Source: Niastella koreensis GR20-10
Lineage (GTDB): Bacteria > Bacteroidota > Bacteroidia > Chitinophagales > Chitinophagaceae
NCBI RefSeq assembly: GCF_000246855.1
Contig: NC_016609.1
Span: 5,840,744-5,904,743 of the forward strand
Reading direction: 5' to 3'
DNA length: 64,000 bases
Of the stretch, positions 5,673 to 50,995 are shown in pieces (positions within the stretch are counted from its first letter, which is position 1; each line of letters starts with the position of its first letter). The notes beneath the pieces were generated by a model, which saw only the letters and a program-made list of their open reading frames with translations, searched no databases and was not told the origin of the DNA. Made by a program: the position numbers and the translations under genes.

Positions 5673-5707
5673 GCGTTAAGCGTTCAGCGTTAAGCCTTTA
5701 GCGTTCT
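5673..5707. repeat. Heptad array, GCGTTAA type
   Basis: Five consecutive 7-base units: GCGTTAA, GCGTTCA, GCGTTAA, GCCTTTA, GCGTTCT. The last overlaps the hldD stop codon (5706-5708). It is one of several arrays in this window with the same period but different units. Confidence 0.8.
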
Positions 5708-6704
5708 AATAGTAATTTCCTTTCACTAAATAGTTACGCACGTAATCATCCACTCCATTTTCCAAAGAATAGAATTCGTCCTTGTACCCCGCATCGCGCA
5801 GCTTTTGCATATTCGCTTCGGTGAAATACTGGTATTTATCGCGAATGTCTTCAGGCATATCAATAAACTCGATCACCGGTTCTTTGTCCAGTCCTCTGAA
5901 GGTAGATTTCGCCAGGTCCTCAAAGCTGCGGGCTTTGCCGGTACCCAGGTTGTATAAACCGCTGGCTACCGCACCGCTGTTCTTTTCAAACTGTTCCATT
6001 AACCAGTAGCAGATCTTCAGCACATCTTTCACGTATACAAAGTCGCGCAACTGCTGGCCATCTTTAAAGCCTTCCTTGTGCGATTTGAACAACTTCACTT
6101 TGCCCGACTGGTTAATTTGTTTGAACGAATGCCAGATCACACTGGCCATGCGGCCTTTGTGATATTCATTGGGGCCATATACATTGAAGAACTTCAACCC
6201 GGCCCAGAAAGGCGGATGCGTGGTTTGTTCCAATGCCCATTTATCAAACTCGTTTTTTGAAACGCCGTATGGGTTCAATGGCTTCAATGCATACACCACT
6301 GCATGGTCATCGTTATACCCTTCTTCCCCGTTACCATAGGTAGCCGCTGAAGAAGCATATACTACCGGCACGTTATTCGCTGTACAGTAATTCCAGATTT
6401 TTTGGGAATACTCCACGTTCAAATGCTGGTGTACGGAATAATCGAATTCGGTGGTATCGGTACGGGCCCCAATATGGAAGATAAAGTCGATGGCAGGTTT
6501 ATGTTCAGCCAGCCACTCAAAAAAATCTTCGCGCTCTATTTTCTCTTCGTATTGTTTGCCTTCGAGATTCTGCATCTTTTCAGGCTCGGTAAAATCATCA
6601 ACCAGGATCAACCGGTTATATCCTTTTTCATTCAGAAAACCGGTTAAACAACTTCCTATAAATCCGGCAGCGCCGGTCACTACTATTTTTGAATCTTTGT
6701 TCAT
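5706..6704 (-). CDS. hldD: ADP-L-glycero-D-manno-heptose 6-epimerase
   Basis: 332 residues, an extended SDR epimerase. It converts ADP-D-glycero- to ADP-L-glycero-D-manno-heptose for the lipopolysaccharide core. Visible features are the Rossmann motif VTGAAGFIGSCL at the start, the acidic strand end LILVDDF, the catalytic serine region YASSAATYGNGEEGY, and NPYGVSKNEFD with the YxxxK pair. The substrate-side segments FFNVYGPNEYHKGRMASVIWH and LRDFVYVKD match HldD. Its stop codon overlaps a heptad repeat, with proC beyond. Confidence 0.93.
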   Translation of the reverse strand: MNKDSKIVVTGAAGFIGSCLTGFLNEKGYNRLILVDDFTEPEKMQNLEGKQYEEKIEREDFFEWLAEHKPAIDFIFHIGARTDTTEFDYSVHQHLNVEYSQKIWNYCTANNVPVVYASSAATYGNGEEGYNDDHAVVYALKPLNPYGVSKNEFDKWALEQTTHPPFWAGLKFFNVYGPNEYHKGRMASVIWHSFKQINQSGKVKLFKSHKEGFKDGQQLRDFVYVKDVLKICYWLMEQFEKNSGAVASGLYNLGTGKARSFEDLAKSTFRGLDKEPVIEFIDMPEDIRDKYQYFTEANMQKLRDAGYKDEFYSLENGVDDYVRNYLVKGNYY

Positions 6705-6750
6705 TTGTCTATGCGTGAATGTTCATCATATTATGGAGCAATCATCAATG

Positions 6751-6860
6751 GTCAGCGGTGAGGAGTCAGTAGTGAGTAGTCAGTAGTGAGTGGGTTCCCG
6801 ATTGTTCAGCATTCTAAATAATCGCGAGCTTACTCACTACTGACTACTCACTACTCACAA
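6751..6860. repeat. Composite inverted-repeat element, copy 1 (AGTAGTG arms)
   Basis: Two inverted arms of heptads (left about 6757-6791, AGTAGTGAGTAGTC type; right about 6831-6858, its complement) flank a core of about 40 bases. They could pair as a stem of roughly 24 base pairs. The element lies between the hldD start and the purL stop. Copies 2 and 3 are at 47473-47601 and 49420-49558. Confidence 0.85.
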
Positions 6861-9095
6861 TTAGAGTGCACTCAATGCATGCTCGCTTTCATGACCGGCC
6901 AGTAAATTTTCAATGGCCGTATCATATTTATTTTTCCAGGCTTCGATGGTGCCCCAGTCTTTACCATCTACTTTAATGGCGCCCCTGGTAACCTGGCCCA
7001 GCTGTTCGTAAGGATGGTTGCCCACTACTTTTTTGAAGGCATCGATTTTTTCAGGCTTTACACTTACTACCACCCGGCTTTGCGCCTCACCAAACCAATA
7101 AGCATCTTTGCGAATTTCGGCTTTCGCTGCGCTCACCTCAACACCCAGGTTGCGGTTAAAGCAGCTCTCCAGCAGTGTTACCACCAAACCACCTTCACTG
7201 GTATCGTGAGCAGATGCAATAACACCCGCTTTAATCAGTTCAGCGATCTTGTTCTGCAGGGTAGCCTCTTCTTCCAGGTCAAAATGCGGGGCCGGACTGA
7301 ACTCTACCTTTTTAACCTTATGTAAATATTCAGAAGAATTGATGTCGTTGCGGCTGGTGCCTATTAGGAATAAATGGTCGCCGGCAGCTTTAAAGTCCAT
7401 CGTCATTTTATCGTTCACATTATCCAGCAAACCCACCATCCCGATCGTTGGGGTTGGATACACCGCGCCATCAGGGTTCTGGTTGTAGAAACTTACGTTA
7501 CCACCTGTTACAGGAGTATCGAATTTCTTACAGGCTTCGCTCATGCCTTTCAACGCATATACAAACTGGTAGTACACCTGCGGATCGTAGGGGTTACCAA
7601 AGTTCAGGCAGTTGGTAATACCTAAAGGCTGGCCGCCACTGCAAACGATGTTGCGGGCAGCTTCAGACACGGCTATCATGCCACCAGTGAATGGATCGGC
7701 ATATACATACCGGCTGTTACAATCGGTTGTAAGCGCCAGTCCTTTATTGGTTGGCTTGGCAATTACCACAGCTGCATCGGCAGGCTGATTAGTGGTAGAA
7801 GTTCCAGCGCCCACCATGCTATCGTATTGTACATACACCCAACGTTTGTTGGCAATGTTGGGGATGGTAATGATCTGCTCGGCCACCGCTTTCAAATCGG
7901 CAGGCACTTCAATTGAATCTGCCTTGAAAGCTTTAATTTTTTCAAAGTATGCAGGCTCTTTATACTCGCGGGTATATTGCGGAGCCCCGCCACCCAGTAC
8001 CAGTTCATTGGCAGGCAATTGAGCCTCCAGCACACCATGCATATAAAAATGCAGGATGCCATCATTGGTAACCTCGCCTATTTCAGAACAGGGCAGGTCC
8101 CATTTATCAAACACTTGTTGAACATCAGCTTCGCGGCCTTTCTCAACCACCATCAGCATGCGCTCCTGGCTTTCGCTCAGCAACAGTTCCCAGGCTTTCA
8201 TATTTTTTTGACGGGTAGGCACTTTATCCAGGTCAATGCGCATGCCCACTTCGCCTTTGGCGCTCATTTCGGCAGTAGAACAAATAATACCGGCAGCACC
8301 CATATCCTGCATGCCCACAACCGCACCGGTTTTTATTACTTCCAGGCAGGCTTCCAGCAGTTTCTTTTCCTGGAAGGGGTCACCCACCTGTACGGCAGGT
8401 AATTCTTCTGCACTTTCAGCAGTGATATCGGCAGAGGCAAAAGAAGCACCACCAATACCATCTTTACCGGTAGCAGAACCAACAAAGAACACGGGGTTAC
8501 CAATGCCTTTGGCAGTAGCAGAAATGGTTTCGCCATTCTTTACAATACCCACGCTCATGGCATTCACCAATGGGTTGGTATGGTAGCACTGTTCAAAATA
8601 TATTTCACCGCCAACGGTTGGTACGCCAAAGCAGTTGCCATAATGGCCAATGCCATGTACAATGCCAGCCAGCAGATGCTGGGTTTTGGCTTCCTTCAGG
8701 TTGCCAAAACGCAGGGAATTGAGCGAGGCAATAGGCCGGGCGCCCATGGTAAAAATATCGCGGTGAATACCTCCTACCCCGGTTGCAGCGCCCTGAAAGG
8801 GTTCAATAGCCGAGGGGTGGTTATGAGATTCTATTTTAAATACAACGCCAAAGCCGTCGCCAATATCCATCAGACCCGCATTTTCCTCACCGGCTTTTAC
8901 AAGCATCTTTTTGCCTTCGCGGGGCAAGGTTTTTAACCACTTAATTGAATTTTTGTAACTGCAGTGTTCGCTCCACATACCGCTGAAGGCGCACAATTCA
9001 GTAAAATTGGGCGTACGGCCAAGTTTTTGTTTTATTAAATCGAATTCTTCTTCGGTAAGACGTAGTTGTTTTGCCGTTTTTACTGTTACTTCCAT
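6861..9095 (-). CDS. purL: Phosphoribosylformylglycinamidine synthase, small-type PurL
   Basis: 744 residues, the length of the small PurL that works with separate PurQ and PurS subunits. It catalyses the ATP-dependent amidation of FGAR to FGAM in purine synthesis. Diagnostic segments are SHNHPSAIEPFQGAATGVGG near residue 90, a central GMQDMGAAGI loop, a second AIRS-like half starting near VQYDSMVGAG, and the ASAHDTSEGGLVVTLLESC segment. The purQ and purS genes are not in this window. The 3' end abuts the composite inverted repeat. Confidence 0.96.
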   Translation of the reverse strand: MEVTVKTAKQLRLTEEEFDLIKQKLGRTPNFTELCAFSGMWSEHCSYKNSIKWLKTLPREGKKMLVKAGEENAGLMDIGDGFGVVFKIESHNHPSAIEPFQGAATGVGGIHRDIFTMGARPIASLNSLRFGNLKEAKTQHLLAGIVHGIGHYGNCFGVPTVGGEIYFEQCYHTNPLVNAMSVGIVKNGETISATAKGIGNPVFFVGSATGKDGIGGASFASADITAESAEELPAVQVGDPFQEKKLLEACLEVIKTGAVVGMQDMGAAGIICSTAEMSAKGEVGMRIDLDKVPTRQKNMKAWELLLSESQERMLMVVEKGREADVQQVFDKWDLPCSEIGEVTNDGILHFYMHGVLEAQLPANELVLGGGAPQYTREYKEPAYFEKIKAFKADSIEVPADLKAVAEQIITIPNIANKRWVYVQYDSMVGAGTSTTNQPADAAVVIAKPTNKGLALTTDCNSRYVYADPFTGGMIAVSEAARNIVCSGGQPLGITNCLNFGNPYDPQVYYQFVYALKGMSEACKKFDTPVTGGNVSFYNQNPDGAVYPTPTIGMVGLLDNVNDKMTMDFKAAGDHLFLIGTSRNDINSSEYLHKVKKVEFSPAPHFDLEEEATLQNKIAELIKAGVIASAHDTSEGGLVVTLLESCFNRNLGVEVSAAKAEIRKDAYWFGEAQSRVVVSVKPEKIDAFKKVVGNHPYEQLGQVTRGAIKVDGKDWGTIEAWKNKYDTAIENLLAGHESEHALSAL

Positions 9096-10202: not shown

Positions 10203-10215
10203 TAAACTATTAAAC

Positions 10216-10278
10216 AGTTCCAAGTTCCAAGTTCAGAGTTCCAAGTTCCAAGTTCAGAGTTCTTAGTTCTTAGTTTTA
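10216..10278. repeat. Heptad array, AGTTCCA type
   Basis: Nine uninterrupted 7-base units of the form AGTTCNN (AGTTCCA, AGTTCAG, AGTTCTT and a final AGTTTTA). It starts 13 bases after the stop of the first glycosyltransferase gene. Confidence 0.9.
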
Positions 10279-10285
10279 AGGCGGC

Positions 10286-10495
10286 GTTGCCGCGCAGGAG
10301 TGTATTGCTTACAGCTTGAGGCTTGGAGCTTGCAGCTGTATTTCGCCGCGCAGGGGTGTATTTGCTTTAAGCTTTCGGCGTTGAGCTTGCAGCTGTATTT
10401 CGTCGCGCAGGAGTGTATTGCTTACAGCTTGAGGCTTGGAGCTTGCAGCTGTATTTTGCTTGCAGCTTATAGCTTGCGGCTTGAAGCTGTTTTCC
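10286..10495. repeat. GCTTNNA heptads with three GC-rich cores
   Basis: Three copies of a core close to TTGCCGCGCAGGAGTGTATT (10286-10306, 10344-10362, 10401-10419) alternate with runs of 7-base units such as GCTTACA, GCTTGAG, GCTTGGA, GCTTGCA. The block fills most of the 305-base gap between the two paralogous glycosyltransferase genes. Confidence 0.85.
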
Positions 10496-10507
10496 TAACT
10501 TGCTCTC

Positions 10508-11422: not shown

Positions 11423-11435
11423 TAAAGTAAAAGGC

Positions 11436-11530
11436 AGTTCCAGGTTCGGGGTTCAAAGTTCCGGGTTTTTCGTTGCCGCGCAGGAGTGTATTTGCTCTAG
11501 GCTTTCGGCTTTGAGCTTTCAGCTGTATTT
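11436..11530. repeat. Mixed heptad array with GC-rich core
   Basis: Five units (AGTTCCA, GGTTCGG, GGTTCAA, AGTTCCG, GGTTTTT) lead into a core copy at 11472-11492 and then GCTNNNG-type units up to the stop codon of the converging gene. It lies exactly between two convergent genes. Confidence 0.8.
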
Positions 11531-12667
11531 CTATTCAGACCAATCCGAATTCAATGTAGCAATGTACTCGTCGATCACATGTTTAATGTTGAACTTCTTA
11601 ATCACCAGGGCGCGGCCATTGCGGGCCAGGCGGCTCCGTTCTTCCAAGGGCAGGTTGATTATCCGTTCCATTTTATCGGCCAGGTCAAAAGGATCGTGCA
11701 CATGGCATAAAAAGCCGGTGGTATTATTCACCACCACTTCCTTACAACCGCGGTTATTGCTGGTGATTACCGGCAGCTCCATACTGGCAGCTTCCATCAG
11801 GCAGCGCGGAACGCCTTCATTATAAAAGGAGGGAAATACAAAACAATCGGCCCGCTGTAAAAACGGCCGCACATCTTTGGCGAACCCGCCATAATGGATC
11901 AGTCCTTCCTTTTGCCAGCGGTCCAGGTCATCCCGGGAAATCGAATCGGGGTGGTGTTGTTCAAAAAAACCGATCAGTTCAAACCGCACTGCATAATTCT
12001 TTTTCTTTAAAATGCGGGCGGCATCGGCATACAGACTAATACCCTTGCTTTTGAGCAGGCGGGTACTCATGAGGAAAGTAAAAGGCTCGCTGTCTTTTTT
12101 AGCCATGCGCTGGGGAAAGGAGAAATAGTCTGTATCAACCCCTTCACCCGGCAAAACCTTTACCTTTTCAATATTTACAATGTGCTCGTTGATGAAAATT
12201 TTAGCATCCTCATTATTCAGGAACCACACTTCCCGCGTTTTACGCAGGGCCCGTTTGTACAGCAGCTTTACTACCCGGTACAGCCAGTTGCGTTTGGCAA
12301 AGGGATAGCCCAACCCGGTGATCACCGCTACCGAAGGTATACCAATGGCTGCGGCGGCCAGGGAACCATAAATATTTGGTTTGGCTACGTAATGAAAAAT
12401 AAAGTCGGGGCGATGCTGGTGGTACAGGTCTTTTAACTGGCGGTAGAAAGCCAGGTCGGCAACGGGGTTTTCGGTTTTATTATTGAAGTTGAGCGGAATG
12501 AAGCGGCAGCCGCTTTGCTGCAGATAGCCGGAGTACTCATCGTCGGGGGCCAGTACCATTACTTCAAACCCATGATCCATGAGGTAGCGGATCACATCTA
12601 ACCTGAAGTTGTAGACAGACCACGCACTGTTTGAAACAAAGGCAATCAACTTACGAGTACCGATCAT
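11531..12667 (-). CDS. Family 4 glycosyltransferase
   Basis: 378 residues with a GT-B fold. The N-terminal acceptor domain starts IAFVSNSAWSVYNFRLDVI. The hinge region is followed by the C-terminal donor domain, with LMSTRLLKSKGISLYADAA and the EGVPRCLMEAASMELPVIT segment. The latter carries the E-x7-E pattern of retaining GT4 enzymes. It would add a sugar to a lipid-linked glycan at the cytoplasmic membrane; no signal peptide or TM is present. It converges on the paralogous glycosyltransferase genes. Confidence 0.88.
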   Translation of the reverse strand: MIGTRKLIAFVSNSAWSVYNFRLDVIRYLMDHGFEVMVLAPDDEYSGYLQQSGCRFIPLNFNNKTENPVADLAFYRQLKDLYHQHRPDFIFHYVAKPNIYGSLAAAAIGIPSVAVITGLGYPFAKRNWLYRVVKLLYKRALRKTREVWFLNNEDAKIFINEHIVNIEKVKVLPGEGVDTDYFSFPQRMAKKDSEPFTFLMSTRLLKSKGISLYADAARILKKKNYAVRFELIGFFEQHHPDSISRDDLDRWQKEGLIHYGGFAKDVRPFLQRADCFVFPSFYNEGVPRCLMEAASMELPVITSNNRGCKEVVVNNTTGFLCHVHDPFDLADKMERIINLPLEERSRLARNGRALVIKKFNIKHVIDEYIATLNSDWSE

Positions 12668-12725
12668 TCAATAAAATTAGGTTCAAATGTATTAATTTGG
12701 AGCTAATTGCGTAATAAGAAAATTG

Positions 12726-12806
12726 TTCCGGGTTGCAAGATACAGGTTACAGGGCTTTGGCCAAAAACCTGGTTATCCCTGCAACCTGAAACCAGAAACC
12801 GGTCCC
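12726..12806. repeat. GGTTNCA-type heptads as an inverted pair
   Basis: The left arm has GGTTGCA...GGTTACAGGG. The right arm, read on the minus strand, is GGTTTCT, GGTTTCA, GGTTGCA, GGG. They could fold into a hairpin just upstream of the membrane-protein start at 12810. Confidence 0.55.
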
Positions 12807-25552: not shown

Positions 25553-25927
25553 ATGCAGTTCAAAATTGATACCAGTGAGAAATTCCATGCCATAACAATC
25601 AAAGAGCCAGTTTTATCTGCTAATATGACAGAAGAATTGGATGCCTGTTTAATGCCCCTCTTGAAACAGGAAGTTAAAAACGTGGTGCTTAATTTACAAG
25701 ACACTCAAAACATTGATAACGCTGCCGGTGAGCACCTGGTCACTATCCAGCAATCGTTTTACGAGCACAATGCCTCATTTGTGATCTGCTGTATGCAAAA
25801 ACAGGTGGAGAAAGCACTTGACAATGCCGGAATACTCGAATTGTTAAACATAGCACCCACTGAAAGCGAAGCCTGGGACATCCTGCACATGGAAGAAATT
25901 GAACGCGAACTGGGCGATTCAATCTAG
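25553..25927 (+). CDS. STAS domain protein
   Basis: 124 residues, a single STAS (anti-anti-sigma-like) fold. Visible elements are KFHAITIKEPVLSANMTEEL at the start, VKNVVLNLQDTQNIDNAAGEHLV, and an ending with ALDNAGILELLNI. In phosphorylated members the residue after the central Asp is Ser or Thr (DSSG in SpoIIAA); here the same place reads DNAAG, so kinase switching by that site is unlikely. It is cytoplasmic. ispD lies downstream on the same strand after a heptad array. The role is unknown. Confidence 0.8.
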   Translation: MQFKIDTSEKFHAITIKEPVLSANMTEELDACLMPLLKQEVKNVVLNLQDTQNIDNAAGEHLVTIQQSFYEHNASFVICCMQKQVEKALDNAGILELLNIAPTESEAWDILHMEEIERELGDSI

Positions 25928-25967
25928 TTCCGGGTTCCAGGTTTCAGGTTCCGGGTTTTACGTTCAA
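25926..25967. repeat. Heptad array, GGTTCCN type
   Basis: Six 7-base units (AGTTCCG, GGTTCCA, GGTTTCA, GGTTCCG, GGTTTTA, CGTTCAA). It starts inside the stop codon of the STAS gene. Confidence 0.85.
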
Positions 25968-31610: not shown

Positions 31611-31621
31611 AAACAGTCCAT

Positions 31622-31747
31622 AGTTCAAAGTTCAGAGTTCAGAGTTCCGAGTTCAGAGTTCCGAGTTCCGAGTTCAGAGTTCAGAGTTCCGAGTTCAGAG
31701 TTCCGAGTTCCGAGTTCAGAGTTCCGAGTTCAGCGTTCAGCGTTCAA
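31622..31747. repeat. Longest heptad array, AGTTCCG/AGTTCAG
   Basis: Eighteen uninterrupted 7-base units, mostly AGTTCAG and AGTTCCG in irregular order, ending with CGTTCAG and CGTTCAA. It fills the spacer between the two tandem M1 peptidase genes. Confidence 0.95.
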
Positions 31748-31751
31748 AGCA

Positions 31752-33350: not shown

Positions 33351-33362
33351 AGTATTTTTGAA

Positions 33363-33465
33363 AGTTCTTAGTTCTTAGTTCTTAGTTCAAAGTTCACAGT
33401 TCAGGGTTGCCGCGCTGAGCGGCATTCCATTAGCACATTAGCAAATTATCACATTAGCATTAGCG
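33363..33465. repeat. Heptad array plus CATTAGC repeats
   Basis: Six AGTTCNN units (33363-33404), a shortened core (GGTTGCCGCGCTGAGCGGC), then a run of CATTAGC-like units spaced 6-8 bases (33428-33465), reaching the stop of the sugar-transferase gene. Confidence 0.8.
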
Positions 33466-34872
33466 TCCTTCTCCCATAAATATAATTCGCAGCGTATACA
33501 CCATGATCTTGAAGTCAAGCGCCAGGGAAACATTTTCTATATAGATCAGGTCGTACTTCATTCTTTTGATCATCTCTTCCACATTCTCGGCATACCCAAA
33601 CTGCACCATGCCCCAGGAGGTTAAACCCGGTTTTACTTTCAACAGGTACGAATAATAAGGCACCTGCTGGTGGATCTTGTTGATGTAATGCGCTCTTTCG
33701 GGTCTTGGCCCAACCAGGCTCATCTCCCCTTTTAAAATATTCCACAGCTGGGGCAGTTCATCCAGGCGCCACTTGCGCATCACGCGTCCCCAGGGCGTTA
33801 CCCGTTTGTCGGTGGCCGATGACAATTGCGGACCGTTCAATTCTGCCTCATGATACATCGACCGGAACTTATAGATATTAAACGGCCGGCCCTTGTACCC
33901 TATCCGCTCCTGCAAATAAAACACCGGTCCCGGTGAACACATTTTTACCCTGATAATTACATACAGGATCAGGGGTAACAGCAATATAATGCCCAGCAGG
34001 GCTATTGTAACATCCAGCACCCGTTTTATATTCTGTTGCCACTGGGGCATCAACCCCGATTTTATATCGGTCAACACCGCGCCAAACAGGTTGCTGGTTT
34101 TTACCGATCCCGATAATATATCCAGCACATCGGGCACAATCTTTACTTCCACATCCAGGTCACTCAACCTGTCCACCACGCGTTCCACCTGCACTTTTTC
34201 CTCTTTATCCAGGGCCACCACCACCAGTTTTATATCCCGTTCGCCAATCACTTTTTCCATGTCCTGCAGCCAGCCATGCCAGGGTATATGTTTACTGATG
34301 CCATTGGGTTCGCCCACGCTTACATACCCGGTGTAATGATAGCCTGCAGTCCGCAATCCGTCGCGGGTATCAATGTAGATCTTTTCGGCCACATGATTAC
34401 CGCCTACCAGCAAAGTATTAAAACGCATGTGGCCCTGCACCAGTTGTTTTTTTACCAGGTTCAGCAAAATCACCCTGAGCGACCAGGTGAACACCCACTG
34501 GGCAAACACATAGGCCGAGAGGGCTTTATAAAAATAGGTATAATCCTTTTGCGGGTCGTTGATTACAATGGCAAAGAAAATGGTGGTGCACCCAATAATA
34601 CAACAAAGCAGGGTTATCAGAAATTCATTTAACCTTCCTTTATTATACAGGGAGTGATAGGCGCCAACCAGCGCGTACAGGAAGATCCAGGTAAGAGGAA
34701 CTAAAGTGATGCCAAACCAGAAGCGGTTATTGAGGTAGATCTCGTGTTCAAAGAAAAGATTTTCGTGTAACAAATACCGCCGGGTAAAGTACAGAACGAT
34801 CCAGGCCATTGTGGCTGCCAAGTAGTCGCCAAGCAGGTACCAGGTACTATGGATACGTTTAACGGAAAGCAT
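33460..34872 (-). CDS. Polyprenyl-phosphate sugar-1-phosphate transferase (WcaJ/WbaP type)
   Basis: 470 residues. Four N-terminal TM helices and a central CoA-binding-like domain precede the catalytic region. That region has a TM or re-entrant helix (VTIALLGIILLLPLILYVII), then VFYLQERIGYKGRPFNIYKFRSM, the WRLDELPQLWNILKGEMSLVGPRPE signature and VKPGLTSWGMVQF. The enzyme starts exopolysaccharide or O-antigen synthesis by moving a sugar phosphate to undecaprenyl phosphate on the inner membrane. It begins 8 bases after the Gfo/Idh/MocA stop, so they form an operon. Confidence 0.95.
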   Translation of the reverse strand: MLSVKRIHSTWYLLGDYLAATMAWIVLYFTRRYLLHENLFFEHEIYLNNRFWFGITLVPLTWIFLYALVGAYHSLYNKGRLNEFLITLLCCIIGCTTIFFAIVINDPQKDYTYFYKALSAYVFAQWVFTWSLRVILLNLVKKQLVQGHMRFNTLLVGGNHVAEKIYIDTRDGLRTAGYHYTGYVSVGEPNGISKHIPWHGWLQDMEKVIGERDIKLVVVALDKEEKVQVERVVDRLSDLDVEVKIVPDVLDILSGSVKTSNLFGAVLTDIKSGLMPQWQQNIKRVLDVTIALLGIILLLPLILYVIIRVKMCSPGPVFYLQERIGYKGRPFNIYKFRSMYHEAELNGPQLSSATDKRVTPWGRVMRKWRLDELPQLWNILKGEMSLVGPRPERAHYINKIHQQVPYYSYLLKVKPGLTSWGMVQFGYAENVEEMIKRMKYDLIYIENVSLALDFKIMVYTLRIIFMGEGR

Positions 34873-35855: not shown

Positions 35856-35950
35856 ATATACAATTAAAGGCGCAAAGATAACAGGATGCGCCTTCTATTG
35901 AAACGCTTTTTTACTACCACTAATTGTATTGGATGTTAACAACTTACCGG

Positions 35951-36062
35951 GTTTCAAGTTCCAGGTTCCAGGTTCTCTGAACTCTGAACCCGGAACTCCG
36001 AACTCCGAACCCGGAACTCGGAACTTGGAACTCGGAACTCCGAACCCGGAACTGAAAACCGG
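35951..36062. repeat. GGTTCNN heptads, inverted pair
   Basis: The left side reads GTTTCAAGTTCCAGGTTCC; the right side is GAACTCN/GAACCCG heptads on the opposite strand, so the two could pair. It lies between the Gfo/Idh/MocA start and the L,D-transpeptidase stop. Confidence 0.8.
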
Positions 36063-36068: not shown

Positions 36069-36842
36069 TTATTTAACGAGGGATGACTTACTCTGGTAAG
36101 CATTATTGGAGGCATAAATAAACAAACAGCTTCCTTCTTTGAGCAGGTCTATTAAAGGTTGGGAAACCTCGGGCGCTACGGCGGGGCAGCCCCAGCTGCG
36201 GCCGATATAACCCTGGCTGTTGATGAGATCTTCACTTACATAGTCGGCCCCATGGATCACAATGCCCCGCTTCATGGCGTAGTCATTGATGCCTTTTTCC
36301 ATGCCCAGCAATTTCAGCGAATAACCGTTACTGCCATTGTAGGCCATGCCTGTTACATAAAAACCCAGGCTGCTTTTGTTGCTCGACATTTTATTACTGA
36401 AGCTGATGGCCTTGTCCTTTCCGGTTTTCATCCCATGGGCCACATACGTATTGTATAACAACTGATAGGTGTTCAGGTCAATCACATACAGCCTTTTGTT
36501 TATGCTGGGCTGACTGAAATCAACAATCGCCAGCAGGTTGTCTTTGATGTGTTTGGTTTTAACCAGTTTGGCCATGCCTTTCAGGGCCATGGTAAATACT
36601 TTTTTCGACAAACCCATTTCCTGTAAATGCAGGCTGTCGTACACATTCAGTTTGCTTACGATGGAAAATATATGCGAAGTAAGGGAGGCGCCTGCTGAGG
36701 TATCGGAGTGTACCGAATACGGGCCATTGGCCGTTCTTTCACCTGCCAGGGCTGGGGTGAAAGCCGATTGTAAAGCTACAACGCCTACCAACAGGAACAG
36801 GCATAGCCGTTTTCCCGGTATTTCGATTAATGGTTTTTGCAT
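36069..36842 (-). CDS. Murein L,D-transpeptidase catalytic domain protein
   Basis: 257 residues. A signal or anchor segment (LCLFLLVGVVALQSAFTPALA) leads to a periplasmic YkuD-related domain. The active-site pattern is IHGADYVSED with His197 and GRSWGCPAV with the nucleophile Cys219. It would form or remodel 3-3 cross-links in peptidoglycan or attach proteins to it. The domain is of the Bacteroidota sub-family with a helical N-terminal region (LNVYDSLHLQEMGLSKKVF). It is transcribed alone and flanked by heptad arrays. Confidence 0.9.
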   Translation of the reverse strand: MQKPLIEIPGKRLCLFLLVGVVALQSAFTPALAGERTANGPYSVHSDTSAGASLTSHIFSIVSKLNVYDSLHLQEMGLSKKVFTMALKGMAKLVKTKHIKDNLLAIVDFSQPSINKRLYVIDLNTYQLLYNTYVAHGMKTGKDKAISFSNKMSSNKSSLGFYVTGMAYNGSNGYSLKLLGMEKGINDYAMKRGIVIHGADYVSEDLINSQGYIGRSWGCPAVAPEVSQPLIDLLKEGSCLFIYASNNAYQSKSSLVK

Positions 36843-36924: not shown

Positions 36925-37114
36925 AGTTCCAGGTTCAGAGTTCCAAGTTCAGAGTTCCGAGTTCCAAGTTCCGAGTTCAGAGTTCCGAGTTCAGAGTTCC
37001 GGGTTCAGAGTTCCAGGTTCCGAGTTCAGAGTTCCGAGTTCAGAGTTCGGAGTTCGGAGTTCAGAGTTGCCGCGCTGAGGGCTTTTGGCTTTATGCTTGC
37101 AGCTTACAGCTTAC
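36925..37114. repeat. AGTTCNN array, short core, GCTTNNN units
   Basis: A long run of AGTTCCA, AGTTCAG, AGTTCCG units (36925-37060) is followed by a shortened core (GTTGCCGCGCTGAGGG) and GCTTTTG, GCTTTAT, GCTTGCA, GCTTACA units up to the stop codon at 37111. Both heptad types occur in one block. Confidence 0.9.
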
Positions 37115-37506
37115 GTGGATTTATCCTTATTAAACAGGTAATTCACTACTACATAGAAGAATCCAAACACATTAGCGGTGGTAGTGGTAATCAGGGCTAT
37201 CAGCACGCCATCGCTCAGGTGAAACGCCTTGCGGCTGCATTGCACCACGATGAATAACACCAGGAACATCCACAATACGGTGATGGCAAAAATAATGATG
37301 CTGAACACTTTACGCGCCATGTTATCATCCAACAGCCTTTTCAGCTGCGCCCTGGCGAACTCCTCCTCCATGTCTAATCCTTTCACCTCTTTTACGTTCG
37401 CCTCCCTGGTATCCACCCTGGTATTGGTGGTATCCTCTAATAATGGCTGCAAAAGATCCTTTGCCCTGTTTACAGGAGCAACGTCAGAATTGGAAGGTAT
37501 ATTCAT
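37111..37506 (-). CDS. Two-TM protein, candidate toxin partner of Panacea protein
   Basis: 131 residues. A polar N-terminal half with coiled-coil potential (KGLDMEEEFARAQLKRLLDD) precedes two hydrophobic helices: VFSIIIFAITVLWMFLVLFIVV and a second one around GVLIALITTTTANVFGFFYVVV. It starts with a one-base overlap (TGATG) with the upstream Panacea-domain gene, so the two are translationally coupled. Membrane-active partners of Panacea antitoxins are known (PanAT systems). The gene itself matches no family I know. Confidence 0.65.
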   Translation of the reverse strand: MNIPSNSDVAPVNRAKDLLQPLLEDTTNTRVDTREANVKEVKGLDMEEEFARAQLKRLLDDNMARKVFSIIIFAITVLWMFLVLFIVVQCSRKAFHLSDGVLIALITTTTANVFGFFYVVVNYLFNKDKST

Positions 37507-37979: not shown

Positions 37980-38048
37980 GGTTATACCTGGTTTTTTGAT
38001 TTTCCAAATATAAGCATTTATTTTTAATTACTAATTTCCTTAGCGCAA

Positions 38049-38206
38049 AACAGCTGTAAGCTGTAAGCTGTAAGCAAGCTGTAAGCTGTAAGCTGTAAGC
38101 TGTAAGCTGTAAGCTGTAAGCCGTCGCGGCAACGGAAACAGCTGTAAGCGCTGCCGCGCAGTGGTGTATTGCTTACAGCTTATGGCTTACAGCTTATAGC
38201 CTTCAC
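38049..38206. repeat. AGCTGTA heptads, inverted pair with core
   Basis: Left: a run of AGCTGTA units (38049-38120). Centre: CCGTCGCGGCAACGG and a core copy (38151-38170). Right: GCTTACA, GCTTATG, GCTTACA, GCTTATA units, the reverse complement of the left. The whole could fold as a long hairpin. Confidence 0.9.
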
Positions 38207-43657: not shown

Positions 43658-44908
43658 ATGAGAAAAATATTTATACTGACCGGACTTTTTGTGGCGATTT
43701 TGGGCGCCGTGCGTGCACAGAACTTAAGCTCTCCTTATTCTGTATACGGCATTGGCGAAATCCAGGAAACAGACCCCGATCGCAGCAGCGGCATGGCCAA
43801 TACTTCTGCCGCCCTTATGAGCACTCCGGGCTTCCTGCTTAATAAAAACCCCGCTTCGCTCATTGGCCTGGAAAGAAGCCTGGCCCAGGTTGACCTGGCG
43901 CTGGTAGGCAAAACCGTTACCTTCAAAGGCGACGCCATCACCAGCAGCAACAATTCTTCCAAAGACCTCGTTATCAAACGCATTTCCATTTCAGCCAAAA
44001 TAAACAACCACTGGGCCAGCAGCATCGGCTTCAAGCCTTACACGTATGTGAACTACTCGTTCACGGCGCAAAAAAGCATCGAAGGCAGCAGCACTACCTA
44101 TACCGGTATTTATGATGGTAATGGCGGGTTACACAATATCTTTTGGAACAATGCCTTTGCCCTGGGCCATCACCTGGCATTGGGTTTACGTTCCAATTTT
44201 ATTTTCGGTTCTATCAACCAAATAGAAACCCTCCAGGGCGCTACCCTCTCCACGCCCATCATTTCGCAGATCACCAATTACTACAGCGGGTTCCGGTTTG
44301 AAGGCGGCGCCATCTATGGCAACAAGATCAACAAGAACTGGCGGTTTTCGGTGGGCGGCAAGGTGACTACCAAAGACGACCTCACCAATAATAAGACATT
44401 GACCGTACAGGAAGGCAATTCCGTAGTTGAAAATAATAAAGACCTGGGTACCGATAAATTCACCCTGCCCTGGCAGTTTGATGGTGGTTTGGCCCTGGTA
44501 AACAAAGGCCACGTTACCTATACGGTAGATTATAGCCGCAGCAACTGGAATGGCTTGAACCAGGGCGGTACTACCTGGACCATGGTTGACCGCCAGCGTT
44601 ATTCAGCCGGTTTCCAGTTCAGCAACCAGGTGCAACGCTATGGACTGGTAGCTGAAAAAAGTTATTTCCAGGCAGGCGTATTCGCCGGTCAGAGTTACCT
44701 GCAGGTAAAAGGCCAGCAGATCAAAGAAGCAGGCGCCACGATAGGTTATGGTGGTTATATGAGCCGCGGTCTGGCATTTCACTTAGCTGCTGAGGTGGGG
44801 AACAGGGGTACGATGATCAACAATTTGGTTAAAGAGAACTATGTTTCGTTTACGCTGGCATTATCTTATAGAGAGGTGCTTTATAGTAAGGGACGGAAAT
44901 ATGATTAG
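43658..44908 (+). CDS. Outer-membrane beta-barrel protein (FadL/OmpP1-like)
   Basis: 416 residues. Signal peptide ends near GAVRAQNLSSPYSVYGIGEI. The body alternates short hydrophobic strands and polar turns and ends with an aromatic strand (VKENYVSFTLALSYREVLY), as in a beta-barrel. The NTSAALMSTPGFLLNKNPASL segment is like the N-terminal plug of FadL-type transporters. It follows a DUF4270 lipoprotein by 10 bases. Cargo unknown. Confidence 0.75.
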   Translation: MRKIFILTGLFVAILGAVRAQNLSSPYSVYGIGEIQETDPDRSSGMANTSAALMSTPGFLLNKNPASLIGLERSLAQVDLALVGKTVTFKGDAITSSNNSSKDLVIKRISISAKINNHWASSIGFKPYTYVNYSFTAQKSIEGSSTTYTGIYDGNGGLHNIFWNNAFALGHHLALGLRSNFIFGSINQIETLQGATLSTPIISQITNYYSGFRFEGGAIYGNKINKNWRFSVGGKVTTKDDLTNNKTLTVQEGNSVVENNKDLGTDKFTLPWQFDGGLALVNKGHVTYTVDYSRSNWNGLNQGGTTWTMVDRQRYSAGFQFSNQVQRYGLVAEKSYFQAGVFAGQSYLQVKGQQIKEAGATIGYGGYMSRGLAFHLAAEVGNRGTMINNLVKENYVSFTLALSYREVLYSKGRKYD

Positions 44909-44913
44909 TTTTT

Positions 44914-44967
44914 AGTTCAGAGTTCCGAGTTCCAAGTTCCGAGTTCAGAGTTCCAAGTTCCGAGTTT
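44914..44967. repeat. AGTTCNN heptad array
   Basis: Seven to eight 7-base units of the AGTTCAG / AGTTCCG / AGTTCCA kind, starting 6 bases past the outer-membrane protein stop. Confidence 0.9.
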
Positions 44968-44981
44968 AATACATTATATAG

Positions 44982-45013
44982 AAAGGCCTCTCGTTACAAC
45001 GGGAGGCCTTTTT
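44982..45013. terminator. Bidirectional terminator
   Basis: AAAGGCCTC / GAGGCCTTT stem, with further CG pairs inside. The plus side ends in TTTTT; the minus side has TTTC. It lies between convergent genes ending at 44908 and 45051. GCCTTT-like heptads follow to 45055. Confidence 0.8.
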
Positions 45014-45050
45014 GCCTCTATGCCTTTCTGCCTTTTTTCTCGTTGCCTTT

Positions 45051-47137: not shown

Positions 47138-47476
47138 ATGTCCTTGAGTAAACAGGATATGCAATATATCCGGCAGGCCAAAACGATTCTTGACGAAAAC
47201 TTCGACAAGCACATTACCATTCCACAACTCGCCCGCCAGGCGGGTATCAACGAAGCCAAATTAAAGGAAGGGTTCAGGGAATTATATGGCAATAGTATTC
47301 ATACCTATATTCAACAACTGCGGCTCGAAAAAGCGAAACAGCTTTTATTAACCACCACTATGCCTATTACGGATATTACGTATCATATAGGGTATAGTCA
47401 TGTGACGCATTTTACCACGTTGTTTAAAAAGGAGGTTGGGGTTACACCGACGGAGTTTAGGAACAAAGGCAAGTGA
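47138..47476 (+). CDS. Single-domain AraC-type HTH regulator
   Basis: 112 residues, only the DNA-binding domain. Two helix-turn-helix motifs are visible: ITIPQLARQAGINEAKLKEGFRELYGNS and MPITDITYHIGYSHVTHFTTLFKKEVGVTPTEFR. No ligand-binding or dimer domain. The gene is followed at once by the composite inverted repeat, which separates it from the converging GMC oxidoreductase gene. It may be a repressor or a DNA-bending co-regulator. Confidence 0.9.
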   Translation: MSLSKQDMQYIRQAKTILDENFDKHITIPQLARQAGINEAKLKEGFRELYGNSIHTYIQQLRLEKAKQLLLTTTMPITDITYHIGYSHVTHFTTLFKKEVGVTPTEFRNKGK

Positions 47477-47601
47477 GTAGTCAGTAGTGAGTAGTGAGTT
47501 AGCTCTCGATTATTTAGACATCTGATTATTCGTGAACTCGCAATTATTCAGACTTCTGAACAGCCGGGAACCCACTCACTACTCACTACTGACTACTGAC
47601 T
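47473..47601. repeat. Composite inverted-repeat element, copy 2 (AGTAGTG arms)
   Basis: Left arm begins at the stop codon of the AraC-type gene; right arm ends next to the stop of the converging GMC gene. Arms are AGTAGTG/AGTAGTC heptads; the core has ATTATTCAGACTTCTG, shared with copy 3. Confidence 0.9.
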
Positions 47602-49332
47602 TTACAAGTTCATTTTCTTCAGCTCACTTACAGCGTAGTCAGCAGCTCTTGCAGTAAGAGCCATGTACGTTAACGACGGATTCTGGCAAGCCGATGACGT
47701 CATACAGGCTCCATCGGTGATAAATACGTTGGGGGCGTCCCATACCTGGTTATGCGCATTGAGCACGGAGGTTTTGGGATCGCGGCCCATGCGGGCGGTG
47801 CCCATTTCGTGAATGCCCTGGCCAATGGCGTAGCCCTTGCTGTCCCAGGTGGTGATGTTTTTTACGCCGGCGGCTTCAAACATGGCCACCAGTTCCTGGA
47901 TGATGTCTTTGCGCATGGCCCATTCATTGTCTTTCAGTTCGGCGTCCATGGCCAGTACGGGCAGGCCCCATTTATCTTTTACGGTAGCATCCAGGGAGAT
48001 CTTGTTATCGTGGTAAGGCAGGATCTCGCCAAAACCGGTGGCGCCAATGTGCCAGGGACCGGGTTCTGTAAGGGCTTGTTTCAGTTCGGCGCCCACGCCC
48101 AGTTCGGCCACATCGCGCTGCCAGTTATCGCGGCTGGCGCTGCCCTGGTAGCCATAGCCCCGCAGGAAATTGCGTTTATCGCCAAACAGGTTGGCGAAGC
48201 GCGGAATATAAAACCCGTTGGCGCGGCGGCCATAGTAATATTTATCGTCATAGCCTTCTACCAGTCCTTTGGCGCCCAGCATATAGTGATGGTCCATCAG
48301 GTTATGGCCCAGTTCGCCGCTGCTGCTGCCCAGGCCGCCCGGCCATACATCGGTAGCGGAGTTCAGCAGTACCCAGGTACTGTTGAGGGACGAGGCATTT
48401 ACAAATACAATTTTGGCATAGAACTCATAGGTTTTGTTGGTTTCGGCATCCAGCACTTCTACCCCTTTGGCCCGTTTGGCGTCCTTGTCGTAAATGAGTT
48501 TGGTAACTATGCTCCAGGGTCGTACGGTGAGGTTACCCGTTTTCACCGCAGCCGGCAGGGTGCTGGACTGGGTGCTGAAGTAGCCGCCAAAGGGGCAGCC
48601 TTCCCAGCAACGGTTGCGGAACTGGCATTGGGTGCGGCCGGGAAGGGGCGCCGTTAAATTGGCCACGCGGCCTATAAATAAATGACGTTGATTCTTATAA
48701 TGTGCTTTGATGCGGTCGCTCACGTCTTTCTCCACACAGTTCAGGTCCATGGGAGGCAGGAACTGGCCATCGGGCAATTGGGGCAGGCCTTCTTTACTGC
48801 CGCTGATGCCGGCAAAGCGTTCTACGTGGTCGTACCAGGGGGCCAGGTCGCGGTAACGGATGGGCCAGTCAACCCCATGGCCGTCTTTGGCATTGGCTTC
48901 AAAGTCAAAATCGCTCCAGCGATAGCTTTGGCGGCCCCAGAGCAGGGAGCGGCCGCCCACCTGGTAGGCGCGCCACCAGGTAAAGGGTTTCTTTTCCACG
49001 TACGGACAATCCTTTTCGTTTGTCCAGTAATTCATGAGCTGTTCGTAGGCAATGGTGCCGCCGGCCCAGTCGCGGCTGGCCACGGGGAAGTCATTCCGTT
49101 GTTTATCGGTTTCGGTGCCCCGGTGCGGCAGGTCCCAGGGGTTCCCGTTGGCAGTTTTATAATCTTTAATGTGTTCCACATTCCGGCCCCGTTCGAGCAT
49201 CAGTACTTTCAGGCCTTTTTCGGTGAGTTCCTTGGCGGCCCAGCCCCCGCTGATACCGGAACCTATTACAATAGCATCATATGTATTCTGGATAACAGCT
49301 TTGCTGTTTACATTGAGAGAATCCCCGGGCAT
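47602..49332 (-). CDS. GMC family oxidoreductase
   Basis: 576 residues, FAD-dependent. N-terminal AIVIGSGISGGWAAKEL binds FAD. KGLKVLMLERG follows, then GGRSLLWGRQSYRW and C-terminal GIHEMGTARMGRDPKTSVLNA, VFITDGACMTSSACQNPSL. The HEMG and NPSLT parts hold the family's active-site region. It resembles gluconate/choline dehydrogenase-like members and may use a sugar or alcohol. No signal peptide or Tat motif is evident, and no small subunit follows. Confidence 0.92.
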   Translation of the reverse strand: MPGDSLNVNSKAVIQNTYDAIVIGSGISGGWAAKELTEKGLKVLMLERGRNVEHIKDYKTANGNPWDLPHRGTETDKQRNDFPVASRDWAGGTIAYEQLMNYWTNEKDCPYVEKKPFTWWRAYQVGGRSLLWGRQSYRWSDFDFEANAKDGHGVDWPIRYRDLAPWYDHVERFAGISGSKEGLPQLPDGQFLPPMDLNCVEKDVSDRIKAHYKNQRHLFIGRVANLTAPLPGRTQCQFRNRCWEGCPFGGYFSTQSSTLPAAVKTGNLTVRPWSIVTKLIYDKDAKRAKGVEVLDAETNKTYEFYAKIVFVNASSLNSTWVLLNSATDVWPGGLGSSSGELGHNLMDHHYMLGAKGLVEGYDDKYYYGRRANGFYIPRFANLFGDKRNFLRGYGYQGSASRDNWQRDVAELGVGAELKQALTEPGPWHIGATGFGEILPYHDNKISLDATVKDKWGLPVLAMDAELKDNEWAMRKDIIQELVAMFEAAGVKNITTWDSKGYAIGQGIHEMGTARMGRDPKTSVLNAHNQVWDAPNVFITDGACMTSSACQNPSLTYMALTARAADYAVSELKKMNL

Positions 49333-49419
49333 AGCATCGTTTTTTTGGTTGGATAGTGAATATAGGTTATTTAGACGCTTATTCGGTAGCTGGGGGATTA
49401 AATTTTATAAACGGGGCAA

Positions 49420-49558
49420 GTCAGTTGTGAGTTGTCAGTTGTGAGTGGGCTCGCTATTATCCAGACACCCGAACAATGGGTAAGTGAGTTCCCTATTATT
49501 CAGACTTCCGGACAATCGGGAACTCACTCACAACTCACAACTGACAACTCACAATTTA
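49420..49558. repeat. Composite inverted-repeat element, copy 3 (AGTTGTG arms)
   Basis: Same layout and core (ATTATTCAGACTTCCGGACAATCGGG) as copy 2, but both arms carry T where copies 1 and 2 carry A: left GTTGTGAGTTGTCAGTTGTG, right its complement. Pairing is thus preserved. It lies upstream of the GMC gene and reaches the 3' end of the T9SS gene. Confidence 0.9.
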
Positions 49559-50877
49559 ACCACCTTAATCGTCTTCACCACTCCATCCCAATGCACCACC
49601 AACGAATAGATCCCCTGCGGTAGCCCGCTCATCTGCAGATCAAACTGATTCAGTCCGGCGGCGGCGCCGGCGGTTTGGAGTTTTACGAGGGCGCCTTTGT
49701 GGTCGTAGAGGTGCATCACCACTTTGGTTTTATTTGCTACCTGTAGTTGTAACCAGGCATTGCCGTAAGCGGGGTTCGGAAATACCCGGGCCACTTCGGT
49801 GATGCCACAGTGGCTTTGTACGGCGGCAGAAATATGCTGATGGCCGTTATCAGCTACCTGTACAATGCGGTACCAGGCGCCGGTAAACGACTGGGCGTCG
49901 GTATACGCATAGGTAAGGCTGCCGGTAACCGGGAGCGTGGCAACAGGCTGCCAGTTGGCCCCATCGAGGCTGCGGTCGATAATAAACTGCCCGGTAGTAA
50001 TGTCGCCCCGGTTTTGCCAGGTTATTACAACCTGGTTGTTCAGGCATTTGGTATGAAGGTCATTGATCATTAATGGTAGTACATATAATTCAGAAGTAAG
50101 CGTGAACCGCGCCATGACGGCAATGTTGGTTTCATCAACAAAATTGGTGGCGCCGTCGCGGGTGTTATAGCCCAGTTCGGTCCAGGTGGTGTTATCGGGG
50201 CTTTTCCAAACGGTGAGCATTGGTTCTGCCAGTCCGTTCAATTCCGCATCAAAATAATGGAGGCCTACGGTGGCCTGCAAGGCACTGTTGTTGGCGGGGA
50301 TGATGTCGTAATACCGCCAGATGGAATTGGGCATATTGGCGCCGTTGGACTGCGACACATGCCCCCGGCGAATAACGGTAGCCCCCATATTAGCCGGTGA
50401 CGTGATCACCACGCCCAGGTTACCCGGGTTAAAGCCTGCCGGTGCATTCAGGAGGTTGGTTATTTCCACATAGCCGCCGGCAGGCCCGGTAATGCGGCTA
50501 TTCTCGTTCTCACCAACCAGGTGAGCCGCAGGCCCCAGGACGATGTTGTTATTATTCAGGTCAATGATGCCATTGGTGAACAGCACCTGGTTATCGATGT
50601 GGAGGCCGGTTTGCAATTGCAGCCGGGCGGCCGGTTTATCCAGCTCCAGCGCATTCAGCTGCGGAATACCGGTTCCACCAATAATGGTGTTGCTGCTGCC
50701 GGTAAACTTTACCGTACCGGCACTTTGCGTGAAGGAACCATTGTTCACCAGGTTCAGGTTATCTACCACCACATAACCACCCGACACCACTACCTGCGCA
50801 CTGGTGTTAGTGAGCTGGCATTGGGTAGCCATAGGCACCCACCCGCCCAGCAATAAAAAAATTATATATCGATACAT
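49549..50877 (-). CDS. T9SS-secreted protein with C-terminal sorting domain
   Basis: 442 residues. Signal peptide ends near ATQCQLTNTSAQ. The N-terminal half is repetitive beta with GGYVVVDNLNLVNNGSFTQSAGTVKFTGSSNT, VLFTNGIIDLNNNNIVLGPAA. A fibronectin-like part follows (TKCLNNQVVITWQNRGD). The last ~75 residues form a type A sorting domain: VFPNPAYGNAWLQLQVAN ... LPQGIYSLVVHWDGVVKTIKVVKL. It is a surface-attached or secreted protein. It lies downstream of the S74 protein gene, transcribed in the same direction, with a GCCTTTT heptad block between. Confidence 0.9.
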   Translation of the reverse strand: MYRYIIFLLLGGWVPMATQCQLTNTSAQVVVSGGYVVVDNLNLVNNGSFTQSAGTVKFTGSSNTIIGGTGIPQLNALELDKPAARLQLQTGLHIDNQVLFTNGIIDLNNNNIVLGPAAHLVGENENSRITGPAGGYVEITNLLNAPAGFNPGNLGVVITSPANMGATVIRRGHVSQSNGANMPNSIWRYYDIIPANNSALQATVGLHYFDAELNGLAEPMLTVWKSPDNTTWTELGYNTRDGATNFVDETNIAVMARFTLTSELYVLPLMINDLHTKCLNNQVVITWQNRGDITTGQFIIDRSLDGANWQPVATLPVTGSLTYAYTDAQSFTGAWYRIVQVADNGHQHISAAVQSHCGITEVARVFPNPAYGNAWLQLQVANKTKVVMHLYDHKGALVKLQTAGAAAGLNQFDLQMSGLPQGIYSLVVHWDGVVKTIKVVKL

Positions 50878-50889
50878 AGGGTATTGTCA

Positions 50890-50995
50890 TTTTGTCTATT
50901 GGCAATTGTTTATTGCCTTTTGCCTTCTGCCTTTTTCTCGTTGCCTTTATGCCTTTATGCCTTTTGTCCATTGTCTATTGTCTATTGCTATCCAG
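50890..50995. repeat. GCCTTTT/CATTGTC heptad block
   Basis: Units such as TGCCTTT, TGCCTTC, TGCCTTT, ATGCCTT, CATTGTC, TATTGTC, TATTGCT occur with a mostly 7-base period. It lies between the T9SS protein gene start and the S74 protein gene stop. Confidence 0.75.

Follow-up and report, generated by a model that had tools for sequence, protein, structure and literature searches.

Seven-base repeat arrays in the spacers of Niastella koreensis: probable arms of many families of dispersed palindromic elements

Introduction

How do tandem repeats in the spacers of one genome keep a unit length of seven bases while the unit itself changes from locus to locus? The question is raised by a 64,000-nucleotide stretch of Niastella koreensis GR20-10 (contig NC_016609.1, positions 5,840,744 to 5,904,743; hereafter the window), in which an initial annotation made from the letters alone pointed to many intergenic period-7 arrays. 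We confirm the observation of period-7 arrays, and the phenomenon is genome- and family-wide. The arrays probably form the arms of miniature palindromic DNA elements, dispersed and of many families, that resemble REPINs (paired repetitive extragenic palindromic, or REP, sequences) and miniature inverted-repeat transposable elements (MITEs). The earlier interpretation, a mechanism that builds repeats of set length at gene ends, is partly supported. No account of such arrays in Chitinophagaceae was found in the open-licence literature on Chitinophagaceae, Niastella koreensis and Bacteroidetes heptamer repeats.

Period of the arrays

Our own sample consisted of the window plus 40 segments of 20 kb each from across the genome (864 kb, 9.6%), with genes taken as the longest open reading frames (ORFs) from our own caller, uncurated. 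Spacer autocorrelation is raised at lags 7, 14 and 21 and less so at 8; coding sequence carries the codon period only. Windows with at least 16 of 21 matches were counted against Markov shuffles of 480 spacers, which gave 95 real versus 1 shuffled at lag 7, 44 versus 0 at lag 8, 6 versus 1 at lag 9 and 7 versus 0 at lag 11, with 0 versus 3 at lag 5, 1 versus 2 at lag 6 and 0 versus 2 at lag 10. Noncoding runs over the 864 kb number 110 at period 7, 46 at 8, 9 at 11, 7 at 9 and one each at 6 and 12; none has a period of 5 or 10, and 60 fall at lag 14, a multiple of 7. Intergenic arrays called by Tandem Repeats Finder (TRF) broadly agree (period 7, n = 52; 14, n = 24; 8, n = 29; 9, n = 5; 11, n = 7), and superperiods of 14 and 21 are common among arrays.

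The window holds 24 runs at lag 7 or 8. At the 12 sets of coordinates where the initial annotation placed arrays, lag 7 is the best among lags 4-12 every time (12/12), most strongly at 31622-31747 and 33363-33404 (0.89 each). The signal is weak at three of them: 10310-10495, a composite that includes linkers (0.45), 12726-12806, which consists of a pair of short inverted arms (0.49), and 50890-50995, where period 8 is intermixed (0.59). The AGTAGTG elements, named there without coordinates, were found at 6757-6864 and 47468-47606 and, as AGTTGTS, at 49418-49559. The period had been called strict. It is mostly 7, but there is a real second class of 8 (33426-33460, 45005-45039, 50933-50973), and a few arrays have periods of 9 and 11. 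Periods are not spread evenly over 5-9; lags 7 and 8 dominate.

Palindromic anatomy

An inverted partner (at least 14/16) lies in the same spacer for 55 of 135 arrays and a direct partner for 10, and comparison with random other array-bearing spacers gave 0 inverted partners. Among 92 two-armed elements, across all gene contexts, the left arm is the G-richer in 75 and the right in 14, with 3 ties. The order of a G-rich and then a C-rich arm stands at 7:0 in divergent spacers and 4:0 inside ORFs; it is therefore read as a property of the palindrome, not of transcription, and a transcription-coupled origin was dropped. Arrays at stops have more G than C on the coding strand (41:11, versus 143:132 at array-free ends; Fisher P about 0.0004), as do those of other Niastella (33:5 versus 42:36; Fisher P about 0.0004), and arrays more than 100 nt from a stop lean to C over G; the arm order accounts for both patterns. 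By eye, two linkers, GCCGCGCAGNRGTGTATTT and GCTCGCGATT, recur between different arm families; loops are variable.

Mismatches between the arms give no evident sign of selection for RNA pairing. In 65 stems from tandem spacers there are 45 G.U and 44 A.C mismatches, with 15 and 10 in convergent spacers; as the two kinds are equal in tandem spacers, RNA pairing is not visibly selected, and a function as RNA hairpins was rejected. Neither REP tag is enriched within 12 nt of the outer ends, GTAG occurring in 12 of the 92 two-armed elements versus 18.0 in shuffled ends and CGTC in 1 of 92 versus 5.8. A G3 quadruplex motif is present in 1 of 173 arrays of our sample. Direct repeats of at least 6 nt flank 9.6% of 83 elements versus 7.0% shuffled, and repeats of at least 7 nt flank 4.8% (four elements) versus 1.2%. 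An apparent ATTAGAA repeat at 5642-5705 was considered as a target-site duplication but discarded, being an isolated case. A further repeated palindrome, of the AAGACCTGTAAGGTC...GACCTGACAGGTCT type and without a seven-base period, shares the spacers of loci L075, L076 (genome G294), L079 (G288) and L080 (G150); G and L numbers are our handles for genomes and loci.

Dispersed copies

Copying is plainest for the element at 6757-6864. As a 108-bp query, it has at least 81 matches at no fewer than 40 distinct genome places, itself included (40 of 74 candidates scored), and the best other copy among the matches listed stands at 93%. Its family, AGTAGTS, has a length of ~95 bp and copies with shared ends. 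Among the 25 distinct best-scoring copies that were inspected (L160 was dropped as a duplicate of L149), 23 come to 16 nt or less from a stop codon at one end or the other, and 7 lie between two stops with both ends inside this distance. Across the sample, a relative elsewhere (E <= 1e-6 within the sample) was found for 80 of 114 array spacers versus 24 of 351 other spacers, which makes dispersed relatives ten times as frequent for the former. The elements are thus high-copy, extragenic, palindromic and dispersed, as whole elements for the AGTAGTS family and less directly for the rest. It had been judged difficult to account for the arrays as copies of a single mobile sequence. There is indeed no single sequence, but many families recur, and the 6757-6864 element is plainly copied.

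Locus L068 carries 131-bp inverted copies of a composite array element at 93% identity (about 4410-4530 and 7700-7830, ~3.2 kb apart), which lie at the outer ends of a group of three genes: one unassigned, one for a pyridoxal phosphate (PLP) enzyme and one for a major facilitator superfamily (MFS) transporter.

Placement relative to genes

Arrays are present in 26 of 76 spacers between convergent genes, in 70 of 282 tandem ones and in 9 of 100 divergent ones, and 62 of 641 stops of our sample have an array start within 14 nt. Of these near-stop arrays, 41/62 start at -3 to +3, as do 30/41 in other Niastella, position 0 being inflated since the search began at the stop codon itself. The abutment to stop codons that was first noted is real, with starts at stops exceeding uniform placement most clearly in long spacers, but it is partly constraint. 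If 30 nt are kept free before starts, uniform placement predicts 22.0 (own) and 24.6 (others) versus 37 and 40 observed. If 80 nt are kept free, it predicts 35.2 of 69 and 38.5 of 75, which is near the observed counts, and stop-codon targeting was therefore rejected as the sole cause of placement.

TAG stops are in excess at array ends of our genome (27/59 versus 68/301 elsewhere), with no excess in other Niastella (12/39 versus 34/88). We also rejected arrays as all-frame stop signals: frames closed within 27 nt number 2.07 versus 1.35 in our genome and 1.44 versus 1.10 in the others, a modest excess, and the antisense strand is also above its shuffle. For Rho sites, C over G is expected after the stop; the opposite is seen, and this candidate was set aside as well.

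Sister species and arrays inside genes

Orthologous spacers were compared in nine Niastella. The anchors around 5642-5705 are 71 nt apart in our genome but 12 nt apart in G295, G297 and G294; the extra sequence consists of an array and a short linker and starts directly after the TAG stop. For 10203-10507 the anchor distance is 316 nt in our genome versus 26 nt in G295 and 34 nt in G297. At 11494-11527 the projected gap is -2 nt in G294 and -8 nt in G297, a less sure projection since the left gene has a paralogue. In two ~19-kb regions, an array lies within 14 nt of the stop in 55 of 234 stop-by-species cases, one G150 array having entered at two paralogous stops. Fifteen orthologous stops have arrays in at least two species, often of different families; at the stop at 31752, six species have arrays of at least four unit kinds. 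Array pairs are alike (at least 17/21) in 24 of 85 comparisons at the same stop and 92 of 1346 at different stops. Therefore, there is some inheritance and much replacement. In G209, the orthologue of spacer 12668-12722 (L179) is nearly 1 kb long and holds more than ten AAGCTGC-type array elements joined by GARTACAGAATACAGCT, a second-order tandem repeat.

The array at 30784-30846, initially taken for a spacer array, is actually in frame within the M1-peptidase ORF 28632-31628(-). The array encodes part of a linker (near 30777-30852) that is strongly variable in the genus. Arrays of differing families (GGCAGAC, GGCAGTA, GGCAATA, ACAAACC and others) occupy this linker in 6 of 7 species, our own included, and the detector found no array in that of G296, the seventh. 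The linker of G150 (L080) encodes a 14-residue repeat. These M1 loci also contain a second M1-like gene, whose linker is short. In TilS (tRNA-lysidine synthetase; L048, 963-2444(-)), an in-frame stretch of several array families lies within the PP-loop domain. Ten period-7/8 runs are inside predicted ORFs of our sample, the M1 one included, some near uncertain starts. The arrays of M1 peptidase and TilS write new residues into proteins. In-frame arrays in genes are better accounted for by insertion and survival where tolerated than by a gene-end machine. With arrays of the same families found in frame in genes, in some divergent spacers and at sites where sister species have short, array-free versions, the location can be explained without a mechanism for building repeats at gene ends.

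Unit families and spread among relatives

Eighteen unit families were defined by hand. The recurrent seven-base families are AGTTCNN, GGTTNCA, GTTACCN, GTSAGTN, GTSAATN, CGGCAAN, GGCAGAN, AAGCNNN, AASGCTN, CAATNGN, GAATRTN, GTTTAAR and a GTTTATG-like one; the recurrent octamer families are GTTRACNN, GMTAATNN, GTTNTTNN, GATTTYGR and GGCANNAA. The units had been described as differing by locus. The period is indeed near constant while units vary, but 14 of the 18 families were seen at least twice in our sample (at least three units each).

The arrays are not unique to the window. Each of nine other Niastella has period-7/8 runs (6 to 58; several stretches were picked at pattern matches). We also surveyed 39 other Chitinophagaceae genomes, with up to 20 kb each (40 kb for G286); some stretches were shorter, one of 2.5 kb having no noncoding base, and 7 of the 39 genomes were picked because a pattern or its reversed control had matched them. 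Noncoding runs in the 39 genomes number 39 at lag 7, 6 at lag 8 and 28 at lag 14, and no other lag up to 13 has more than 4. A period-7 run is present in 14 of the 39, and in 9 of the 32 that were not pattern-chosen. Because stretches from G253 and G286, as well as several from G209, G288, G071, G150 and G253, were taken at known pattern matches, the array counts of relatives are biased upward.

Four AGTTCNN units in a row were found in 15 of 294 family genomes, including all six Niastella of that search, and in 5 of 61 genomes drawn over the phylum, our own among them; four AGCTTNN units were found in 4 of 10 Niastella. The variable bases of AGTTCNN depend on the species (AG, CA and CG in our genome, AA and AC in G071, TT and AT in G286), and family counts also vary by species. 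Very long AGCTTNN arrays, of more than 20 units, lie at G253:C8:131576-131882 and, near uniform, in our own genome at G000:C1:1236886-1237079; they are possibly young expansions.

The individual arrays of the window are listed in Table 1.

Table 1. Repeat arrays and array-built elements of the window (positions in the window; strand as assigned, "." for none)
Feature	Position	Strand	Remarks
AASGCTN period-7 array	5666-5706	-	directly after TAG stop of epimerase gene 5706-6704(-)
Palindromic element	6757-6864	.	AGTAGTS-array arms 6757-6795 and 6828-6864, ~35-nt loop
AGTTCNN array	10213-10281	+	10 nt 3' of stop at 10202
Composite of GCTTNNA arrays	10289-10490	.	linker GCCGCGCAGNRGTGTATTT; one block about three times, 56-nt period
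AAGCNNN-type array	11494-11527	-	near stop of 11531-12667(-)
AGTTC/GGTTYC array	25923-25958	+	starts at TAG stop of 25553-25927
GGCAGAC period-7 array	30777-30852	-	inside M1-peptidase ORF 28632-31628(-), in frame, hypervariable linker
AGTTCNN array, ~18 units	31612-31750	+	fills spacer between 31752-33350(-) and 28632-31628(-); at stop, reversed relative to usual family orientation
AGTTCNN array	33356-33408	+	near start of 31752-33350(-)
Period-8 array, GMTAATNN in sense	33426-33460	-	abuts stop of 33460-34872(-)
AGTTCCG array	35947-36054	-	14 nt from stop of YkuD gene 36069-36842(-)
Long AGTTCNN array	36933-37072	+	21.1 units by TRF
TAAGCTG array	37087-37115	-	first unit holds TAA stop of 37111-37506(-)
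Two-armed AAGCTGT/GCTTACA element	38047-38206	.	linker of GCCGCGCAGNRGTGTATT type
Convergent spacer	44904-45039	.	AGTTCNN array at TAG stop of 43658-44908, terminator-like hairpin, period-8 GGCANNAA array near other stop
AGTAGTS palindromic element	47468-47606	.	spans convergent spacer from stop to stop
AGTTGTS palindromic element	49418-49559	.	downstream of stop of 49549-50877(-)
CAATAGA (7) and AAAGGCAN (8) arrays	50904-50991	-	CAATAGA array overruns end of ORF 50975-52618(-) and contains its stop codon

Discussion

If the arrays are the arms of dispersed palindromes, an element would consist, from 5' to 3', of a G-rich array of period 7 or 8, a loop or linker and a C-rich array that is the reverse complement of the first; other arrays would be partial, one-armed or mosaic remnants. 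Elements may be copied to new places without clear target-site duplication, presumably by an enzyme working on single-stranded hairpin DNA, and would survive where they do least harm: right after stops, in convergent and tandem spacers and in protein linkers that tolerate them. Each species would prefer its own units, such that one stop may carry unrelated families in sisters, and within an array tandem duplication of one to three units would alter unit number and order. If the arrays belong to mobile palindromes as their arms, there is little out of the ordinary in where they lie and on which strand.

A RAYT-like (REP-associated tyrosine transposase) Y1 transposase kept in the genus is a candidate for the mover, although we consider this role doubtful. 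Its gene is present in 9/9 Niastella searched (G295, 61% complete, was excluded) and encodes 142 amino acids in seven of them by our ORF caller; our own genome has two Y1 matches. In 8/9, G297 being the exception, the RAYT-like gene is preceded by a spacer with an array of the GTSAATS/CGGCAAT group, and 15 of 28 pairs of these upstream arrays are alike at 17/21 or better; arrays are frequent everywhere, and the spacer may have kept its array. As a necessary factor the Y1 transposase was rejected, since Y1 matches do not track arrays in the stretches sampled. RAYT loci of other, array-bearing genera of Chitinophagaceae (L206, L208, L210, L211, L213) are flanked, by eye, by conventional REP-like palindromes such as GTCCTACGGAC and GCTCCGCCGGAGC.

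Four other explanations have to be weighed. Dedicated machinery might build fixed-length repeats at gene ends, for example a polymerase re-copying 7-8 nt from the stop, with the unit seeded locally. This would suit a period fixed at 7 or 8 while units vary, the crowding of near-stop starts at -3 to +3 (inflated at position 0), the TAG excess at our own array ends and an abutment that persists in long spacers. We find it improbable because unit families recur between loci, arrays lie in frame in genes and in divergent spacers, the TAG excess is missing from other Niastella, and the strand rule tracks the palindrome rather than the gene. Ordinary replication slippage plus selection, with short repeats growing in free spacer and units of 7-8 nt surviving best, also strikes us as unlikely. 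The common superperiods of 14 and 21 speak for it, and heptameric simple sequence repeats are said to be over-represented in many bacterial genomes (PMC4692102). However, it offers no reason for the dearth of periods 5, 6 and 10, for families common to several loci or for locally complementary arms.

Selection might instead keep the arrays as functional RNA elements of 3' untranslated regions, either exonuclease-stopping hairpins or terminators. Their position after stops in convergent and tandem spacers is like that described for REPs (PMC3733652), and some arrays flank terminator-like hairpins. Against this stand the equal G.U and A.C mismatches, the families that often differ at one stop, the separation of terminator-like hairpins from the arms in the cases seen, and an Rfam search of the window that gave no match at gathering scores; such a role is quite unlikely. 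A tRNA search gave no lead on the arrays. Least credible is a ring-shaped or repeat protein that binds DNA or RNA with a step of 7-8 nt: the step could in principle fix a period without fixing a sequence, but the unit families have no obvious common core.

Several observations weigh against dispersed palindromes as the full account. No inverted partner of even 12/16 was found for 58 of 135 arrays, and one-armed arrays at stops keep the strand rule (48:11). Target-site duplication is at most a hint, array-to-array matches are partly due to a common unit rather than whole-element copying, and we infer copying from similarity and from array-free versions of sites, not from movement that was seen. 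Pure turnover is contradicted at the stop at 33460, where one octamer family is kept in five species (our own and four sisters). Where a spacer has at least 200 nt to spare, the first array nonetheless begins no more than 10 nt from the stop in 15 of 37 cases, an abutment for which selection alone may be insufficient. For the candidate mover, Y1 matches occur in G114, G002 and G015, which have no period-7/8 run in the sampled 20 kb, and array-bearing G051 and G003 have only weak ones. Furthermore, copying of palindromes gives no cause for a near-fixed step of 7-8 bases across unrelated unit sequences.

One speculative proposal, which we rate as unlikely, would address that step. A single Chitinophagaceae copying system would handle hairpin DNA in steps of 7-8 nt, with the enzyme (a polymerase or Y1-type transposase), not the unit, setting the period; it would keep rewriting arrays, both after stops and within protein linkers. 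Heptamer repeats in Xanthomonas, Nostoc and Beggiatoaceae would then follow the same principle.

Comparison with known systems

The heptamer reports considered here concern distant bacteria; each deals with a single unit and proposes a separate role for it (quadruplexes, translation signals). In Niastella, many units coexist within one genus and obey a common period, placement rule and palindromic plan, which suggests that the length is set by a shared process and that roles tied to a given sequence come second. Niastella species form a natural experiment: unrelated arrays at one stop and array-free spacers make heptamer origin, and the question of why seven, directly testable in close strains.

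Cyanobacterial short tandemly repeated repetitive (STRR) heptanucleotides and the heptanucleotide stems of tRNA-Leu introns share the period of 7, and the intron stems are complementary arrays. Rickettsia palindromic elements are palindromic repeats found in frame in genes and in spacers; they are not known to be built of short tandem arrays. Of the features of a classical MITE, inverted arms are found here, and flanking direct repeats occur at the frequencies given above (four of 83 elements for at least 7 nt). TAACTGA direct repeats have been described in Beggiatoaceae, some cyanobacteria and five Bacteroidetes, along with mixed heptamer assemblages in Elizabethkingia and Microcystis and some relatives with shorter, repeat-free spacers (MacGregor 2015, PMC4679880). 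They too are heptamer tandem repeats in spacers, but they have one unit, mostly just upstream of starts in the Beggiatoaceae genome studied, whereas here there are many units, mostly after stops.

REPs are high-copy extragenic palindromes of 20-40 bp, often paired in opposite orientation and carrying a GTAG or CGTC tag; they follow coding regions, in spacers of convergent or unidirectional genes, some families are species-specific, and a Y1 transposase gene may adjoin them (PMC3733652, PMC3116915). Like REPs and REPINs, the elements of Niastella lie mostly in convergent and tandem spacers, downstream of coding regions. Unlike them, their arms are tandem arrays of 28 to about 140 bp with variable units, neither tag is enriched, and many families coexist with the two Y1 matches of our genome.

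G-rich heptamers are known from Xanthomonas (GGGNATC) and Nostoc (GGGGA(T/C)T), with 186 and 183 repeats in two Xanthomonas; most are either on the coding strand, no more than 50 bp from a stop, or on the opposite strand, ahead of an ORF; they are scarce between divergent ORFs, and some form inverted pairs (Rehm et al. 2015, PMC4692102). Period 7, sense-strand placement on the stop side and inverted pairing are all found here. That study has one G-quadruplex-forming unit type per genome, in contrast to at least 14 recurring families in our one sample, and a period-8 class, in-frame copies, dispersed palindromes and the near absence of quadruplex motifs further set Niastella apart. A palindrome geometry would explain the strand pattern reported in Xanthomonas and Nostoc (PMC4692102). 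The closest known systems are the REP/REPIN elements and the Xanthomonas/Nostoc heptamers.

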